From a bacterium (GTDB taxonomy: Bacteria; Bacillota_I; Bacilli_A; RF39; UBA660): DNA of 36,504 nucleotides. Both the position numbers and the translations under genes were made by a program. Below the pieces are notes generated by a model. That model did no database searches and had not been told where the DNA came from. It saw only the letters and a program-made list of their open reading frames with translations. The DNA lies in NCBI GenBank assembly GCA_030531425.1, contig JAUNNO010000008.1, positions 1 to 36,504 of the forward strand. Reading direction: 5' to 3'. Shown here piece after piece: positions 12,831 through 19,320 of the stretch (within the stretch, counting starts at the first letter, position 1; every line of letters begins with the position of its first letter).

Positions 12831-12849
12831 AAAACAGCATAATTGCTGT
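12828..12849 (-). terminator. Terminator of the nuclease/ADP-ribosylglycohydrolase operon
   Basis: The stem ACAGCA/TGCTGT (12834-12839 and 12844-12849) has a 4-nt loop and is followed by seven U residues in minus-strand RNA. It lies 10 bp after the 194-aa gene. Confidence 0.8.
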
Positions 12850-12858
12850 CTTGTAATA

Positions 12859-13443
12859 TTAATAGTATTTTTTAGGAAAATATTCCTTGCCTAATTGCCA
12901 TAAATATCTATCAATATCTTTTAATCCATATTTATCGATATTATAAAAGTTTTTGAAACTAATGAGGATATTCTTAAATTTTGAATAATCTTTTAGGTCA
13001 GAAGAATTGAATTGCTCAAACTTATCTATCTTTTTAAAATGCAACAATACCTTTTCAACAAAACTATCGTAAATTGGAAAATCATCCGCATTATGATGAC
13101 TACAATATTTTGTTGCAAATGAATAGAAATGTTTATTTATACCACCTATAGTTACATTAGCTATATCATTAACTAATGTAGTATCTCCACTCTTTAATCT
13201 TTTATCTATATCTAATTCTAATATATGTTTTGCTACAGGAAATATTGAAAAAATATTTGTGCTATAAAAATCATTTAAAGAACTAGCTTTAATTAAAATA
13301 TCATTAATATCATTATTATTTGGATAAGTCTTATGGAATAGTTTATATAAACTGCTTTCTTGTAAAACATAGTTTTCTAAAGAATCCCATCGATTTAGAT
13401 ACTTTTCTACTTCTGATTTGCATGGTCTTGGAATATTTTTCAT
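12859..13443 (-). CDS. Unknown 194-aa protein, last gene of the nuclease/DraG operon
   Basis: A mostly helical protein. The best conserved-looking parts are LNDFYSTNIFSIFPVAKHI, FYSFATKYCSHHN and DFPIYDSFVEKVL. The Y-C-S-H-H-N-x-D-x-F-P-I-Y-D-S pattern looks like a family signature, and the helical layout reminds me of helix-hairpin-helix DNA glycosylase-like folds, but I cannot confirm that. It begins on the base next to the DraG stop codon (GAGGTGATATAA ribosome site), so the two are coupled. Its job is therefore probably linked to ADP-ribose removal or to the nuclease upstream. The His/Cys pairs (about residues 118-121) would be the first residues to test. Confidence 0.6.
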   Translation of the reverse strand: MKNIPRPCKSEVEKYLNRWDSLENYVLQESSLYKLFHKTYPNNNDINDILIKASSLNDFYSTNIFSIFPVAKHILELDIDKRLKSGDTTLVNDIANVTIGGINKHFYSFATKYCSHHNADDFPIYDSFVEKVLLHFKKIDKFEQFNSSDLKDYSKFKNILISFKNFYNIDKYGLKDIDRYLWQLGKEYFPKKYY

Positions 13444-15183
13444 TTATATCACCTCATATTTTTCATTAAATTGATCGTGTATTTTAATTAAATACTCATC
13501 CAAATAAGTCAATGCTTTTTCAATTAACTCCTTTGGAATGCCATAATATGCGGATGCTATACTTCCTGTTATCGCACCAATTGTATCACTGTCTCCTCCA
13601 AGTGCAATTGCATTTCTTATTGCATCTTCAAAGTCATATGAATCAAAAAATGCACTTAAAGATTGTTTAACAGTTTCAACACAATTAATATGAAAATATT
13701 GTGGTTTCATAGTATCAATTTTTAAATCATCTACTTTAAAATAGTTAGATTCAATATATTGTTTAATACTACCTTTATTTTCACCATTTAATGCCATACG
13801 AATAGCAACTGATATTGCTTCAGCACCATTTATACTATCTGGATGATTATGAGATACATTAGTAATTGTTGCAGATACTTCTTTTATCTTATCAATACTA
13901 TTAATTGCAACACCTACTGGACTTATCCTCATTGCAGCACCATTACCAAAACTTCCATATGGTTTATGTTCTTCAGAAATAATCCATTGATAAAAACTTG
14001 GTCCATAACCACAATCTGGATATTTTCTTCCTAATTCGGTCATTGATTTAATTGCTTTATCTTCTATATCACTAAAGTTATCATTTGAATCAAGCAATGC
14101 TTTTGCTACAGCTAATGTCATTACTGAATCATCAGTATATCTACAATTCTTATGAAGTAATTCAAAATTTTTACCATTTTTATTATTTACAAGTTCAAAT
14201 CTTGATCCTGAAATATCACCAATAATTGTTCCTAGAATAACATCCCTTTTTAGAATAGATGATTTATGTTCAAATTCTATTGCTAAATTAATTAAATAAT
14301 CCTTTTTTGCTAATACATTTAACCACTCTTCTGGAATATTATTATATCCATAAATTATTCCTGCCATTGATCCAGTTATAGCACCAACAGTATCAGTATC
14401 ATCACCAAGATTGATTGCACCAATTATTGCCTCTTTAAAACTTTTACATTGTAAAATCACCCAAATAGATGCCTCTAATGTATCTACAACATAACCAGAT
14501 GACTTAATCTCATTTACTGATAATTTAGATAAATCATCTTTTAATACTCGTTTATATGCTTCAATAGATTCATTAGAATAAAAATCATAGTTAAGCTTTT
14601 TTAACTCATTATATGCATCAAATTTATCCAATCCAGATAATAAGAACATAACATATCTTACATATATATAACATCCAAGCTTGCTTATTTCATGTCCATG
14701 AGTTAATGATGAAATATCATTAGTTAATTTAACTATTTCACTATCTTTTAAAGCTTTACTATAAGAATATAATGCAACCGGTAATATTCTCATTAATGAA
14801 CCATTACCATTAGAATACAAATCTTTTTGACCACACTCATTAAGTTCATATCCTTTTGAAAAATTTATAATAGATTGAATACAAGTATGTCCTGCATCAA
14901 ATACTACTCCAGTTGGTGTAAATCTATTTTCTTTTAACCAATAATAAAAGTTCATCATTATATCTTTACAATCAAAGCTTCCTTTATTAATAAATGAGTC
15001 TATTGTTGCTATTTCCATTGATGTATCATCAGACCAAGTTCCAGCTGGAACATCGTGTGAACCATATCCAACCATTTTTGTAATTGGATGCTCTAATAAT
15101 TTATTTCTAGGTTCAAACTCTATTGGCACACCCATAGCATCACCAATTGCATGACCTATTATACTATCAACATATTTGGACAT
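13444..15183 (-). CDS. Tandem ADP-ribosylglycohydrolase (two DraG/ADPRH domains fused)
   Basis: A 579-aa protein with two complete DraG-type domains. Domain 1 (about 1-300) has GHAIGDAMGVPIEF, the metal site TWSDDTSMEIA, NGSLMRILP and GDDTDTVGAITGSMAG. Domain 2 (about 312-579) repeats the series: GTIIGDISGSRFE, YTDDSVMTLAVA, GNGAAMRISPVG, HNHPDSINGAEA and GGDSDTIGAITGSIAS. DraG-type enzymes hydrolyse ADP-ribose from arginine or other acceptors using two Mg ions bound by these Asp/Thr residues, and both sites look intact. Most family members have one domain of about 300 aa, so the fusion is unusual. It lies 12 bp below the AbaSI-like nuclease gene behind AGGAGG, and next to the 194-aa gene. 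The likely role is reversal of ADP-ribosylation, by a phage or by the island itself. Confidence 0.9.
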   Translation of the reverse strand: MSKYVDSIIGHAIGDAMGVPIEFEPRNKLLEHPITKMVGYGSHDVPAGTWSDDTSMEIATIDSFINKGSFDCKDIMMNFYYWLKENRFTPTGVVFDAGHTCIQSIINFSKGYELNECGQKDLYSNGNGSLMRILPVALYSYSKALKDSEIVKLTNDISSLTHGHEISKLGCYIYVRYVMFLLSGLDKFDAYNELKKLNYDFYSNESIEAYKRVLKDDLSKLSVNEIKSSGYVVDTLEASIWVILQCKSFKEAIIGAINLGDDTDTVGAITGSMAGIIYGYNNIPEEWLNVLAKKDYLINLAIEFEHKSSILKRDVILGTIIGDISGSRFELVNNKNGKNFELLHKNCRYTDDSVMTLAVAKALLDSNDNFSDIEDKAIKSMTELGRKYPDCGYGPSFYQWIISEEHKPYGSFGNGAAMRISPVGVAINSIDKIKEVSATITNVSHNHPDSINGAEAISVAIRMALNGENKGSIKQYIESNYFKVDDLKIDTMKPQYFHINCVETVKQSLSAFFDSYDFEDAIRNAIALGGDSDTIGAITGSIASAYYGIPKELIEKALTYLDEYLIKIHDQFNEKYEVI

Positions 15184-15195
15184 ACTAACCTCCTT

Positions 15196-16149
15196 TTAAA
15201 AGAATTTGCTTAAATCTATTTCAGTTGAAACTCTTTTCCAAATTCTAATATTTCTATCTTTTGATTGTTCTTCATCCAATTCAAAAACACCTTTAAATTT
15301 ATAAATCATTATTCCAGTTTCATCTTTATATTTTGTGAATATATATCTAATAGGTTTCTCTTGAATAACACTTTCTAAATATCCATTTTTTCTTTCTTTT
15401 TGGTTTTCAAATATATATAACCCGTCATCACTTATTTCGTTTTCCCAAGAGTTATCATTACATTCATCACCATTAATCTTAACAGTTGGACACCAAAAAT
15501 ATTCATTATTTCTTATGTTTATATATCCATGCAACTTTTGATTGAATGGAACTTTATCAAAATTAAATAATTTACCAATATCATCTATTGTTCTAAATTT
15601 TGCATTATCTTGAACTGAAATAATTCCTTTTTTAATAAATTCATCTGGTGAACTATTTACTTTATCCCAAGGAATAAAATTTTGACCTAATTTTTCAATT
15701 CTACTTTTGATTTCATTTACAATATCATCTATTTGATTATTAATATCTTCTAAACTTCTATTATAAACAACAATTCTAAATGGTTCTTCCAATTCAACAT
15801 TGATTACTTCTTCTAAAGCATCATATTTCTTTTTAGCTTCTATCGAAACCTTATTTTCTTCGATTACTTCATTAGTTCTCTTTAAATCAGATTCTTCTTG
15901 AATAAAATGATGCCCTTCATCTATTTCTACCCAAACATTTACTTGAGGTAAATATAAATCTGCTAATGCTATCTTTTTACCTTTCCTCTTGAATAATTGT
16001 TGAGTAACTATTTTTACATCATTTCTATTAATTAGTGAATAAATACGATTTATACAGTAGTTTTCGTATTTCTTTCCAAAAGTTTTCTTCATTTGATTTG
16101 TTATGTAATCAATTTTTTCAGTATTAGAATTATTATCAATAAATCCCAT
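15196..16149 (-). CDS. AbaSI/PvuRts1I-like modification-dependent restriction endonuclease (probable)
   Basis: A 317-aa protein. Residues about 60-85 hold a Vsr-like PD-(D/E)xK core: ADLYLPQVNVWVEIDEGHH, where the Asp, the second acidic pair and the HH fit a catalytic centre. The C-terminal half (from about 165) contains HGYINIRN, NEYFWCPTVKINGDE and an aromatic/beta-rich tail (YIFTKYKDETGIMIYKFKGV), the layout of the SRA-like domain that binds hydroxymethyl- or glucosyl-hydroxymethylcytosine in PvuRts1I/AbaSI enzymes. These enzymes cut phage DNA with modified cytosine and need no methyltransferase. None accompanies this gene in its operon. It starts behind GTGGTGATA, with an extended -10 promoter just upstream. 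The family assignment is from pattern memory; a different PD-(D/E)xK enzyme with a PUA-like reader is possible. Confidence 0.6.
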   Translation of the reverse strand: MGFIDNNSNTEKIDYITNQMKKTFGKKYENYCINRIYSLINRNDVKIVTQQLFKRKGKKIALADLYLPQVNVWVEIDEGHHFIQEESDLKRTNEVIEENKVSIEAKKKYDALEEVINVELEEPFRIVVYNRSLEDINNQIDDIVNEIKSRIEKLGQNFIPWDKVNSSPDEFIKKGIISVQDNAKFRTIDDIGKLFNFDKVPFNQKLHGYINIRNNEYFWCPTVKINGDECNDNSWENEISDDGLYIFENQKERKNGYLESVIQEKPIRYIFTKYKDETGIMIYKFKGVFELDEEQSKDRNIRIWKRVSTEIDLSKFF

Positions 16150-16168
16150 ATTATCACCACTCTATATT

Positions 16169-16177
16169 ATTATACCA
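16169..16177 (-). promoter_or_regulatory. Extended -10 promoter of the nuclease/DraG operon
   Basis: ATGG-TATAAT-AATATAGAGTGG, with TGG-TATAAT at 16177-16169. About 30 bp here are nearly identical to the region before the macro-domain gene (17275-17283). No clear -35 is seen. Confidence 0.65.
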
Positions 16178-16200
16178 TGAATTCCGCCATTTTTAGGCAT

Positions 16201-16230
16201 AAAAAAAGACATCCCTATACTAGCGGATGT
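16201..16230 (-). terminator. Terminator of the AGUA-repeat RNA
   Basis: The 6-bp stem ACATCC/GGATGT (16209-16214 and 16225-16230) has a 10-nt loop and is followed by seven U residues in minus-strand RNA. Confidence 0.8.
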
Positions 16231-16375
16231 TTTACTACATGTTGTTAGATATTTACTACTATACTTCCATACTACATTACTGCACTACTTCTACTACAAT
16301 ACTTCATAAAGCTCTACTACATAACAACTATTTACTGCTAAATACTTCTTACTTCATACTACTTTATCTAACAAC
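16201..16375 (-). ncRNA. Apparent ~175-nt noncoding RNA with AGUA repeats and almost no C
   Basis: A perfect consensus promoter (TTGACA-17-TATAAT, 16382-16410) fires toward a stretch without any usable ORF and ends at a terminator with seven U residues (16201-16230). The predicted RNA begins with GUUGUUAGAUA near 16375, which is one arm of a 13-bp perfect closing stem (16239-16251 with 16365-16377). The 113 nt in between are built from about 15 irregularly spaced AGUA units (GUAGUA, GAAGUA, GCAGUA) and contain only three C residues. Every ATG in it meets a stop within a few codons, because GUAGUA brings UAG. It lies between the zinc-ribbon gene and the AbaSI-like nuclease gene. I know no RNA family like this; a regulatory, decoy or guide-like RNA of the adjacent defence genes is inference. 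Confidence 0.7.
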
Positions 16376-16377
16376 AT
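16239..16377. repeat. 13-bp inverted repeat enclosing the AGUA-rich tract
   Basis: ATGTTGTTAGATA (16239-16251) and TATCTAACAACAT (16365-16377) are perfect complements, 113 bp apart. In RNA they would close the molecule into one large loop. Confidence 0.85.
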
Positions 16378-16381
16378 AATC

Positions 16382-16410
16382 ATTATACAAAATATGTCAT
16401 TTATTGTCAA
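16382..16410 (-). promoter_or_regulatory. Perfect consensus sigma-A promoter of the AGUA-repeat RNA
   Basis: TTGACA (16410-16405), exactly 17 bp, TATAAT (16387-16382). This is the strongest-looking promoter in the window, and no protein-coding frame follows it before the terminator. Confidence 0.85.
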
Positions 16411-16428
16411 TCGATAATTTTTGATTAA

Positions 16429-16686
16429 TTAATCTTTATTCTCTTCTTTTGTTGCATAATAATCATCAAAGATATCGTTTGCCTCTTCTATATAATCCTT
16501 TAAATTTTTAAAATAGCTTCTTCTACAATTATAACAATGATATATTGGATCATTATCTGATATCATACACCCACCGATAAATACTTTTTTCTTCTTTAAA
16601 GCTTCCCCTGGATCAGGAACTAACCCATATATTATTTTTGCTAAATTTTCTCCACAATTAGGACATTTAATTTCTTTTTCTTTCAT
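16429..16686 (-). CDS. 85-aa zinc-ribbon protein
   Basis: Two CxxC pairs, CPNCG at residues 8-12 and CYNCR near 51-55, make a zinc ribbon. Between them lie GLVPDPGEA and FIGGCMISDNDP, a pattern shared by a family of small bacterial proteins of unknown function. The tail is acidic and helical. The start (ATG 16686, AGGATGGTG ribosome site) is 15 bp after the macro-domain gene, so the two form one operon. Nothing in the sequence says what it binds. Confidence 0.75.
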   Translation of the reverse strand: MKEKEIKCPNCGENLAKIIYGLVPDPGEALKKKKVFIGGCMISDNDPIYHCYNCRRSYFKNLKDYIEEANDIFDDYYATKEENKD

Positions 16687-16701: not shown

Positions 16702-17253
16702 CTATAATTCAAAAACACCTTTATTTATTCCATTAAGATAGTTTAAATATAATTTATAATCTAATTCTTCATAGCATACAAATTTAACCTCAAAATTTTT
16801 AGAAATACATTCTCTAATTGTATCTATTGCTATTTTGCAAGCTTCATCTTTTGGATAACCATATATACCAGTAGAAATACAAGGAAAACCAATACTAATT
16901 TTATCTAATCCATTATCTATTCTATATTGTTCTGCTAATTCAATGCATTTTTTATAACATTCTTTCAACTTTATTGGTGCTTCTTCTCTATTTCCATAAT
17001 ACATTGGCCCACAAGCATGAATGATTTTTTTACAAGGAAGATTATATGCATTAGTCATTTTAGCAGAACCTATTTCACAGCCATTTAATTTTTTACATTC
17101 TTCTAATAACTCTGGTCCAGCTTTATAATGAATAACACCATCAATACCTCCGCCACCAAGTAAAGTATGGTTAGCAGCATTAACTATAATATCTAAATTC
17201 ATTGAAGTTAAATCCCCTTGAACTACTTCTATATTATCAATTTTAGTTTTCAT
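16702..17253 (-). CDS. Macro-domain ADP-ribose hydrolase (YmdB/MacroD-like)
   Basis: The 183-aa protein is one macro domain. It has the GDLT start strand, the catalytic/binding loop VNAANHTLLGGGGIDGVIH and the second loop PCISTGIYGYP, both diagnostic of MacroD/YmdB hydrolases. These release O-acetyl groups or ADP-ribose from acidic residues. It has its own extended -10 promoter and begins the cargo region just after the VirD4 terminator. Together with the double DraG protein 1.5 kb away it gives the element three ADP-ribose-cleaving domains. Removal of ADP-ribose marks made by phage or by rival toxins is a reasonable inference; DarG-like antitoxin use is less likely because no DarT-like toxin is visible. 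Confidence 0.92.
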   Translation of the reverse strand: MKTKIDNIEVVQGDLTSMNLDIIVNAANHTLLGGGGIDGVIHYKAGPELLEECKKLNGCEIGSAKMTNAYNLPCKKIIHACGPMYYGNREEAPIKLKECYKKCIELAEQYRIDNGLDKISIGFPCISTGIYGYPKDEACKIAIDTIRECISKNFEVKFVCYEELDYKLYLNYLNGINKGVFEL

Positions 17254-17274
17254 ACCATCACCACTCTATGTATT

Positions 17275-17283
17275 ATTATACCA
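17275..17283 (-). promoter_or_regulatory. Extended -10 promoter of the macro/zinc-ribbon operon
   Basis: CATGG-TATAAT-AATAC-ATAGAGTGGTGAT, with TGG-TATAAT at 17283-17275. The sequence from CATGG to the ribosome site nearly repeats that of the nuclease gene. Confidence 0.65.
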
Positions 17284-17305
17284 TGTTTTTAACTTTTTCA
17301 GACAC

Positions 17306-17335
17306 AAAAAAAGAGGTAGTCATTTCCGACTACCT
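17306..17335 (-). terminator. Terminator after VirD4, end of the transfer region
   Basis: The 8-bp stem AGGTAGTC/GACTACCT (17314-17321 and 17328-17335) has a 6-nt loop and a run of U residues. It closes the conjugation gene block and isolates the cargo genes. Confidence 0.88.
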
Positions 17336-19320
17336 TACTTTCTTAATGATAAATCTTTTAATGGATTTTCATTATAAATATTAATAATTGTTTTTTCTTC
17401 TTTTTCAGATACTTCAGTGTGATATAATTCTGGTTTAATTTTGTTTGTTAATAAAGACTTTTCTACTTGCTTTAATGGTCGATTTATTTTAACAGAAATA
17501 TGAACCCTGTGATTAGCTTCTATATTGTATTTAATATCATAATCTTGTTTAAATATTTTTTCAATTATCAATTCTAATGGTTTTAAGTTTTCTTTATCTG
17601 ATAACTCTAAAGCTTCATAATATTCTTTGGCTTCTTTGTTTTCTCTTACTCTGCCATTAGATACTTGATGATTTATACTTTCTACTGTGAAATATGTATA
17701 AGATAAATCTTTTAATGGTTTAGATTCTCTTTCAACTATCCCAGATTTATAACAAGAAAATTTGTTATATAAAACTGTATCTCTAAAAATTGGAAATCCA
17801 ATTATTGGAAAGATAATAGTTTTATAATGCAATTGTTTAACTTCTTCTGGAGTCATTAAATCTCTTCCGATTAAGTTAGTCGATCTATCTCCATTATAGT
17901 TTAATAAAGACATTGATTGTCTTACACTATTTGATTCTATTGTCTTCTTACCTAATCGTTTTGAAATTGCTTCAGCGGTATCCTGAGTATTTGTTTTTAA
18001 ATAAATTAAGCCACAGTTATCAAGGATAATTTGTGCAACTTCTTTTCCATACACATTATCTAATTGAGAAAATGATTGTATAAAAAAATGAAAATGCATT
18101 CCTCTTGATCTTGCTACTGAAACAATTGCTTCAATATCTGCAAGTGGTGGACAGTTTGCAAATTCATCTAAAATAAAATCTATCTCATAAGGTAATTTCT
18201 TTTTTTCTGTGCTATTAGCAAGTTTAACTAAATCTCTATACAATAAACCAACAATAATTGTAACTAATGTAAAATATGTTTTATCTTCATCTGGAACTAT
18301 AACATATAAAGCTGTAGGTTCTTTTCCTAAAATATTAAATTCAAAATCACTTGAGCATGTAACATTTGCTACATTAATATCATCAAATAAATTCATCTTT
18401 TCACCAAATACCGCTGTAATAGACTTGTATGTATTATCACTTGCACTAAGAATACTTACTAGAGCATCTTTTGATTTACTTCCATATTCTCTTTTATTGA
18501 TATAATCTTTAAATTTCTTAAAGTTATTTTCCTCCATTGAACTATTTTGAAATTTTCTAATAGATGTCATAGTTATTTTTTCTCTAGTAATATTACCAAG
18601 TTTATATTCTTCTAAAAAGAATCCAATTAATCCTTCTAAAAGATTTTTGGCAGAATTATTCCAAAATGGATCTTTTTGTTCAACTTTTTCCTGCATTACC
18701 ATTGTTGATAAAGATGATATAAGTCTATTCGTTTCAGCAAGTGAACTCATAGATAAATTATTGTAATTAAGTTTTTCTTCTTCAGTTTTAGATTCAATAG
18801 ATAACTTTTCATATTTAATATATTCTTCATATTCCACTATTATAGGTTCAAGTATATTTATCTTATTCGATTTTTCTGGATTTCTAAAATCTATTGTTAA
18901 AATCCTATATCCATTATCTTGAAACATTTTTGATGTTGTTTGATATATTTCTCCTTTAGGATCTGTTATAAATACACTTCGTTTTTTCTTTGCATTAGCA
19001 ATAAATGCACAACTAGGAATAACAGCAGTAACAGATTTACCAGATCCTGTTGAACCTAAATAAACATAATGAGGCGTTTCTCGATCAAAATAAATCGTTC
19101 TCAAATCTTTACTAAAAGAAACTGGAAAACCAGCTTCTTTTATATTATTAATTTTTTCTTTTTTAAAATTTTGTTTAATCTCTTTATCAGAACTAAATCT
19201 AGCTGAACCATATTCATTATCATTTTTTACTTTATGCTTCATTAAAATTGGTTCAATATACATAAATCCTAATAAAAAGAAAACGGTAATAACTAGTAAA
19301 ATAATTAAAGTTACATTCAT
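17335..19320 (-). CDS. virD4: VirD4/TraG-type conjugative coupling protein
   Basis: A 661-aa membrane ATPase with one N-terminal transmembrane helix (about 3-24) and then the TraG/VirD4 core. Walker A is GSTGSGKS (89-96), followed by FITDPKGEIYQTTSKM. Walker B is IDFILDEFANCP with the downstream ARSRGMHFHFFIQSFSQLD. Coupling proteins dock the relaxase-DNA complex to the type IV channel and help pump DNA. The C-terminal 150 residues are charged and may contact the relaxosome. It starts behind GGAGTTATAGT, 2 bp from the upstream gene, and ends within its terminator. It is separated from the other channel genes by the mob operon, as in several Bacillota ICEs. Confidence 0.95.
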   Translation of the reverse strand: MNVTLIILLVITVFFLLGFMYIEPILMKHKVKNDNEYGSARFSSDKEIKQNFKKEKINNIKEAGFPVSFSKDLRTIYFDRETPHYVYLGSTGSGKSVTAVIPSCAFIANAKKKRSVFITDPKGEIYQTTSKMFQDNGYRILTIDFRNPEKSNKINILEPIIVEYEEYIKYEKLSIESKTEEEKLNYNNLSMSSLAETNRLISSLSTMVMQEKVEQKDPFWNNSAKNLLEGLIGFFLEEYKLGNITREKITMTSIRKFQNSSMEENNFKKFKDYINKREYGSKSKDALVSILSASDNTYKSITAVFGEKMNLFDDINVANVTCSSDFEFNILGKEPTALYVIVPDEDKTYFTLVTIIVGLLYRDLVKLANSTEKKKLPYEIDFILDEFANCPPLADIEAIVSVARSRGMHFHFFIQSFSQLDNVYGKEVAQIILDNCGLIYLKTNTQDTAEAISKRLGKKTIESNSVRQSMSLLNYNGDRSTNLIGRDLMTPEEVKQLHYKTIIFPIIGFPIFRDTVLYNKFSCYKSGIVERESKPLKDLSYTYFTVESINHQVSNGRVRENKEAKEYYEALELSDKENLKPLELIIEKIFKQDYDIKYNIEANHRVHISVKINRPLKQVEKSLLTNKIKPELYHTEVSEKEEKTIINIYNENPLKDLSLRK

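Follow-up and report, generated by a model that had tools for sequence, protein, structure and literature searches.

A family of small RNAs with repeated AGUA motifs in conjugative elements of Bacilli and its possible function as a multivalent decoy

CsrB/CsrC and RsmX/Y/Z are decoy small RNAs, which carry many GGA motifs in their loops and linkers and thereby bind the protein CsrA. Regularly repeated short motifs are also found in the targets of TRAP and HutP, which are RNAs with NAG repeats, in case of TRAP about 11 (G/U)AG triplets at a spacing of 2-3 nt. The locus described here is located on the minus strand of a 36,504-nucleotide stretch of bacterial DNA, which is referred to as the window. 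Its RNA belongs to a family that, like CsrB and RsmZ, consists of terminated small RNAs in which one short motif is presented in many copies of varying number, both by hairpin loops and by the linkers that join variable stems. It differs from them in its motif, which is AGUA instead of GGA, in its carriage by conjugative elements and in a host genome that contains no match to CsrA. The RNA most likely works like CsrB/RsmZ, but it is not a member of their family, since the tests for the GGA motif and for CsrA both gave a negative result. The resemblance to TRAP and HutP targets is confined to regularly spaced NAG-like triplets. The commonest spacing between AGUA motifs is 8 nt and not the 2-3 nt of TRAP triplets, the period of about 8 nt is built around an AGUA core, the RNA would be a free small RNA instead of an mRNA leader, and HutP (PF09021) was not found in the host genome. 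Finally, type III toxin-antitoxin and abiF RNAs similarly combine repeats with a following terminator on mobile DNA (PMC12373285), whereas the family described here lacks a constant toxin neighbour and has a repeat unit of 8 nt; neither the window nor nine family loci match the abiF RNA model (RF03085). The locus comprises the following features:

16405-16410, minus strand: -35 box TTGACA, exact sequence
16382-16387, minus strand: -10 box TATAAT, exact sequence, with a 17-nt spacer to TTGACA
16365-16377, minus strand: 5' arm of the 13-bp closing stem, an inverted repeat with compensatory A-U to C-G changes in homologues
16252-16364, minus strand: interior of 113 nt with 14 AGUA, the second half in units of about 8 nt (AGUA plus 4 nt)
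16239-16251, minus strand: 3' arm of the closing stem, from the inverted repeat and the comparison with homologues
16231-16238, minus strand: single-stranded linker GUAGUAAA, common to the whole family
16201-16230, minus strand: intrinsic terminator ACATCC-GCTAGTATAG-GGATGT-C-TTTTTTT, with a loop common to the family

In its account of the locus architecture, a first-pass annotation of the sequence has proven accurate. The perfect TTGACA-17-TATAAT promoter that it described is found exactly at 16410-16382, and the inverted repeat of the closing stem is perfect over 13 bp (ATGTTGTTAGATA/TATCTAACAACAT, pairing 16377-16365 with 16251-16239), compared to a longest inverted repeat of 10 bp in 100 dinucleotide shuffles. 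The proposed terminator with seven U residues is a canonical intrinsic terminator, consisting of a hairpin with a 10-nt loop followed by seven T, and the tract is devoid of an ORF as stops break all frames. The predicted RNA of about 175 nt would extend from 16377 to 16201 on the minus strand, with a transcript start predicted at the first bases of the closing-stem 5' arm on the 16377 side. Its fold has a minimum free energy of -46.6 kcal/mol, equivalent to a z-score of -5.35 with respect to shuffled sequences. The spacer of the promoter (16388-16404) contains a YGACA element 11 nt past the start of TTGACA, which is found at the same position in homologues, among them most members of the long type defined below, and which may serve a common regulator as operator.

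The composition of the interior had been described as about 15 AGUA units and three C residues within 113 nt, of which the length and the number of C are correct, whereas we count 14 AGUA, or 16 when the entire RNA is considered. Dinucleotide shuffles of this RNA contain on average 8.0 AGUA and at most 14 in 1000 sequences. Within the window, 170-nt segments of the plus strand never contain more than four AGUA, and the highest counts on the minus strand (15-16) all fall on this RNA. Conversely, the scarcity of C, which had been regarded as special, is a common property of the minus strand, a coding strand with G in excess of C, where several coding stretches of 113 nt hold as few as 1-3 C. We have thus discarded low C content as a signal, which instead resides in the density of AGUA.

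Homologues of the RNA were identified in other gut Bacilli and within the host genome, for which 1.3 Mb on 98 contigs were searched at a completeness of 94%. A second copy on host contig G000:C22 is 82% identical and resides in a second element, and a homologue in G023, a genome of another genus, is 79% identical; both are located 3' of a virD4 gene and its terminator and are preceded by their own promoter. Together with the window RNA, G387, two copies in G187, L048, L072, L078/G526 and L117, they constitute the long type A. In an alignment of these ten sequences, both helices are kept with compensatory changes and 99% of the cells are paired, compared to 39-54% in a control with slid pairing partners. 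In three of the ten members, an A-U pair of the closing stem is replaced by C-G on both sides, and two further pairs with double changes are found in the terminator stem. Between members, the interior is longer or shorter by whole units, frequently of 8 nt, so that a peptide frame would not be kept. In light of the stops in all frames and the 8-nt insertions and deletions we have dismissed an encoded peptide, whose conservation in relatives the annotation had named as evidence against its proposal. The conservation of the helices combined with the unit-wise variation of the interior also argues against a chance origin. The locus is a conserved gene, in agreement with the proposal that a noncoding RNA has an independent gene here; its strong promoter and its terminator are both conserved in homologues. 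Among the long-type members, the interior of L078 forms a nearly regular 8-nt series of AGUA plus four nucleotides, and in L048 several AGUA units have turned into WGUA. No long-type homologues were found in a plasmid and a phage collection.

A wider family was defined by scanning 84,980 species genomes for a sequence pattern and with a covariance model of 37 positions. Its recurring module consists of the terminator loop GCUAGUAYAG and the preceding linker GUAGUA, and loci sharing both differ in their 5' stems. Besides the long type, we distinguish type B with two hairpins (G070:C67, G515, G489, G523 and L102), the compact type C (G083, twice in G410, G558 and a degenerate copy in G514) and the multi-hairpin type D (G000:C87 and G070:C6); no homologues of type B were found in the plasmid collection and none of type D in the phage collection. 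Whereas stems and length differ among members, AGUA is kept in linkers and in the loops of both hairpins and terminator, in up to 19 copies per RNA. Compact members contain just 2-4 AGUA in loops or linkers of the folded RNA and retain a promoter-like sequence and the terminator. Loci with several AGUA motifs are almost all from metagenome assemblies labelled as Bacilli. In the host family, the covariance model of the 3' module matches 34 of 385 genomes in 28 genera, a number that includes type E RNAs (see below) and mRNA ends with the same terminator, so that true AGUA RNAs are fewer. This patchy occurrence is as expected of a mobile trait. In a class-wide sample of 394 genomes, matches were found in the host family only, the listed part of the sample being drawn from that family. 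Rfam 15 gave no hit at the gathering threshold in the window, and nine family loci were without a match up to E = 1, consistent with the suspected absence from known Rfam families, and in a limited check of the literature we met no description of these RNAs. They define an undescribed and patchily distributed RNA family that is not listed in Rfam.

In predicted folds, AGUA is preferentially exposed, with a mean unpaired probability across family members of 0.56 compared to 0.26 for other letters. The respective values are 0.71-1.0 and 0.20-0.32 in types B and C, and the difference amounts to about 0.05 in shuffled sequences. A point against the decoy function proposed below is that the predicted fold pairs part of the long-type interior, with an unpaired probability for AGUA of 0.43 in the window RNA. 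As read from the sequence, G000:C87 and G070:C6 present an identical loop, GYAGUAAUGUAGUAU, on stems that are unrelated.

The same kind of elements also contains a second class of small RNAs, termed type E (L070 6890-7012, L019 1401-1522, L026, L027, L033, L106 and L194), which consists of a 5' hairpin, an unpaired UUAAACCAUUUUAC, a second hairpin and the GCUAGUAYAG terminator. UUAAACCAUUUUAC is conserved and the complement of AGUAAAAUGG, hence start-codon-like. No Rfam match was found for the two members tested.

The genomic context identifies the window as a conjugative element, with VirD4 (T4SS-DNA_transf), a relaxase, SSB, a ParB-like protein and HTH_36 assigned by Pfam, and a VirB4-like and other transfer genes assigned by sequence alone. 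Two further features of the window are the following:

17335-19320, minus strand: VirD4/TraG coupling protein; in related elements the RNA is directly downstream of virD4
12835-16441, no strand assigned: segment of about 3.6 kb that is missing from G263, with the RNA, a PvuRts1I-like nuclease, an ADP-ribosylglycohydrolase and a 194-aa gene

Members of type A are mostly located at the end of the transfer module ahead of the cargo, the RNA of G558 is found 3' of a relaxase gene and most members of types B-D adjoin HTH_36 or XRE genes. The cargo of homologues varies and includes acetyltransferase-like, acyl-CoA-synthetase-like, nitroreductase-like and tet-like genes, and no protein gene is common to the family neighbourhoods. 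In one case (L138, G187:C3, 10279-11583), the type A RNA is followed by the start of a gene that by eye resembles tetracycline-resistance ribosomal protection proteins. Just four of the 30 VirD4 loci that include flanks have the RNA nearby, which makes it a facultative component of the element.

The annotation had suggested that the RNA may be part of a defence or regulatory system, as it is located between a macro-domain and Zn-ribbon operon and a nuclease and ADP-ribosylglycohydrolase operon. The latter region (13444-16149) encodes a modification-dependent nuclease (with PvuRts1I-like N-domain and SRA domain according to Pfam) beside a 579-aa ADP-ribosylglycohydrolase with two matched stretches. 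A role in defence is not supported by comparison with related elements. The element in G263:C7, which is 98.2% identical to the window over 17 kb of backbone, contains the macro and Zn-ribbon genes after virD4 without the RNA in the compared stretch, and the RNA has arrived with the insertion of about 3.6 kb, which has taken the place of the adjoining end of the Zn-ribbon gene (85 aa in the window, 16429-16686, compared to 136 aa in G263). Homologues of the ADP-ribosylglycohydrolase and the 194-aa protein are found beside virD4 in G232, equally without the RNA. Homologues of the RNA, for which the annotation had proposed a search next to nuclease, DraG or macro-domain genes, were found beside unrelated cargo. 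With a near-identical element lacking the RNA and variable neighbours, we have rejected a defence partner, and the RNA is a passenger of element evolution, associated with integrative conjugative elements, and not the RNA half of a defence module. The intergenic strip following the window RNA is 82% like the strip after virD4 in G263, consistent with an exchange of cargo by recombination at a shared promoter strip, which likely serves as recombination site for cargo swapping. Similar promoter strips (...GGTATAATAATA...AGTGGTGAT-ATG) are found at 16140-16207 and 17253-17340 of the window, where they precede both the PvuRts1I-like and the macro-domain genes, and in L230 (2065-2127).

The small-RNA gene stands alone and belongs to an integrative conjugative element. 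As most plausible function, with a probability of roughly 0.45, we propose that its product would act in trans as a multivalent decoy, equivalent to CsrB/RsmZ with AGUA in place of GGA. The RNA would be strongly transcribed from its sigma-70-type promoter and its exposed AGUA sites, in the long type about one per 8 nt, would bind several copies of a host RNA-binding protein, whose titration would lower the free protein and shift the mRNAs under its control. We prefer a protein over an RNA as partner since the conserved unit is a short one that recurs at even distances and has moved from stem to stem, and since scans for pairing failed, and a protein of the host over one of the element since no gene is common to the neighbourhoods. 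Of four RNA-binding protein families sought, CsrA (PF02599), Hfq and HutP were not found in the 94%-complete host genome, where positive controls were detected. KH_KhpA-B is represented by two proteins (frames of 83 and 204 aa), which makes KhpA/KhpB the first candidate. KhpB binds small RNAs in other Bacillota, in a study that does not state a binding motif (PMC10117718), and we thus regard the pair as candidate only.

In the rest of the host genome, tandem AGUA is no more frequent than the control (20 hits outside of the RNAs compared to 23), and it is not enriched before start codons either (31 of 994 compared to 63 for the reversed motif). No target set has thus emerged, and we have rejected tandem AGUA as a mark of host targets. 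The start region of khpB (AAAAGGAGUAAGUAAU-AUG) is a weak lead, with counts not above chance. The same applies to a possible target on G000:C39 (L245, 1486-1530, minus strand), where the leader UAGUAGAGUAGUGUAGUAUAAGGAGG of a 139-aa gene of unknown function places three AGUA directly before the ribosome-binding site.

The host is known from a metagenome-style draft of a small genome with neither CsrA nor Hfq found, and a mobile RNA that displays AGUA up to 19 times offers a ready-made bait for a protein or RNA reading this motif. If the decoy function was true, conjugative elements would have a trans-acting RNA among their possible means of influencing the host. A wider proposal, which we consider rather doubtful, is that this mobile-element RNA family titrates an unrecognised global AGUA-reading RNA-binding protein, possibly KhpA/KhpB, in Bacilli without detectable CsrA or Hfq, and would thus represent the CsrA-CsrB principle invented independently a second time and employed by conjugative elements to reset host gene expression.

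Among other explanations, we regard as unlikely a base-pairing regulator, acting as activator, repressor or sponge, whose AGUA or GUAGUA seeds would pair with UACU-containing mRNAs or another small RNA. Short conserved motifs in unpaired loops are typical of seeds, and type E RNAs contain UACU in their unpaired UUAAACCAUUUUAC, end with the same terminator and occur together with the AGUA class in G558. However, duplexes with type E have no better energies than shuffles do, a comparative duplex scan of start regions of shared element genes did not reveal a consistent target, there is no conservation of the UACUAC seen in one HTH_36 leader, and the conserved unit comprises just 4-6 nt with free flanks. 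These results equally weaken the earlier suggestion of an antisense to UACUAC-rich RNA.

An insulator against read-through, in which a promoter-terminator unit without partner separates transfer genes from cargo, would account for the position of a terminator at this boundary, but leaves unexplained the conserved loops on changing stems and the copies beside regulatory genes, and we regard it as improbable. Still less probable is a role as antitoxin or guide RNA in a system for defence or addiction, working with a neighbouring protein as in type III toxin-antitoxin systems. Its repeats and terminator and the proximity of nuclease and ADP-ribose genes fit such a role, which conflicts with neighbourhoods that have no protein gene in common, the lack of Rfam matches including abiF RNA and the presence of the defence genes elsewhere without the RNA. 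We assign the lowest probability to a DNA-level repeat array of iteron or centromere-like sites that is incidentally transcribed: the 8-bp units with changing copy number in the long type would agree with it, but not the compact members, whose few AGUA are placed in loops and linkers of a folded RNA with retained promoter-like sequence and terminator.

Finally, the terminator loop was found in other contexts. A mimicry of the sarcin-ricin loop, with which the RNA shares CUAGUAC, was considered and discarded since the remainder of the ricin loop is missing from the RNA. Protein-coding transcripts of mobile elements (L021, L022, L024, L025, L058, L088 and L100) likewise end with the loop GCUAGUAYA, which is also part of clean terminators in the unrelated phage contigs L128, L129 and L133, so that the motif may in part be just a good terminator.
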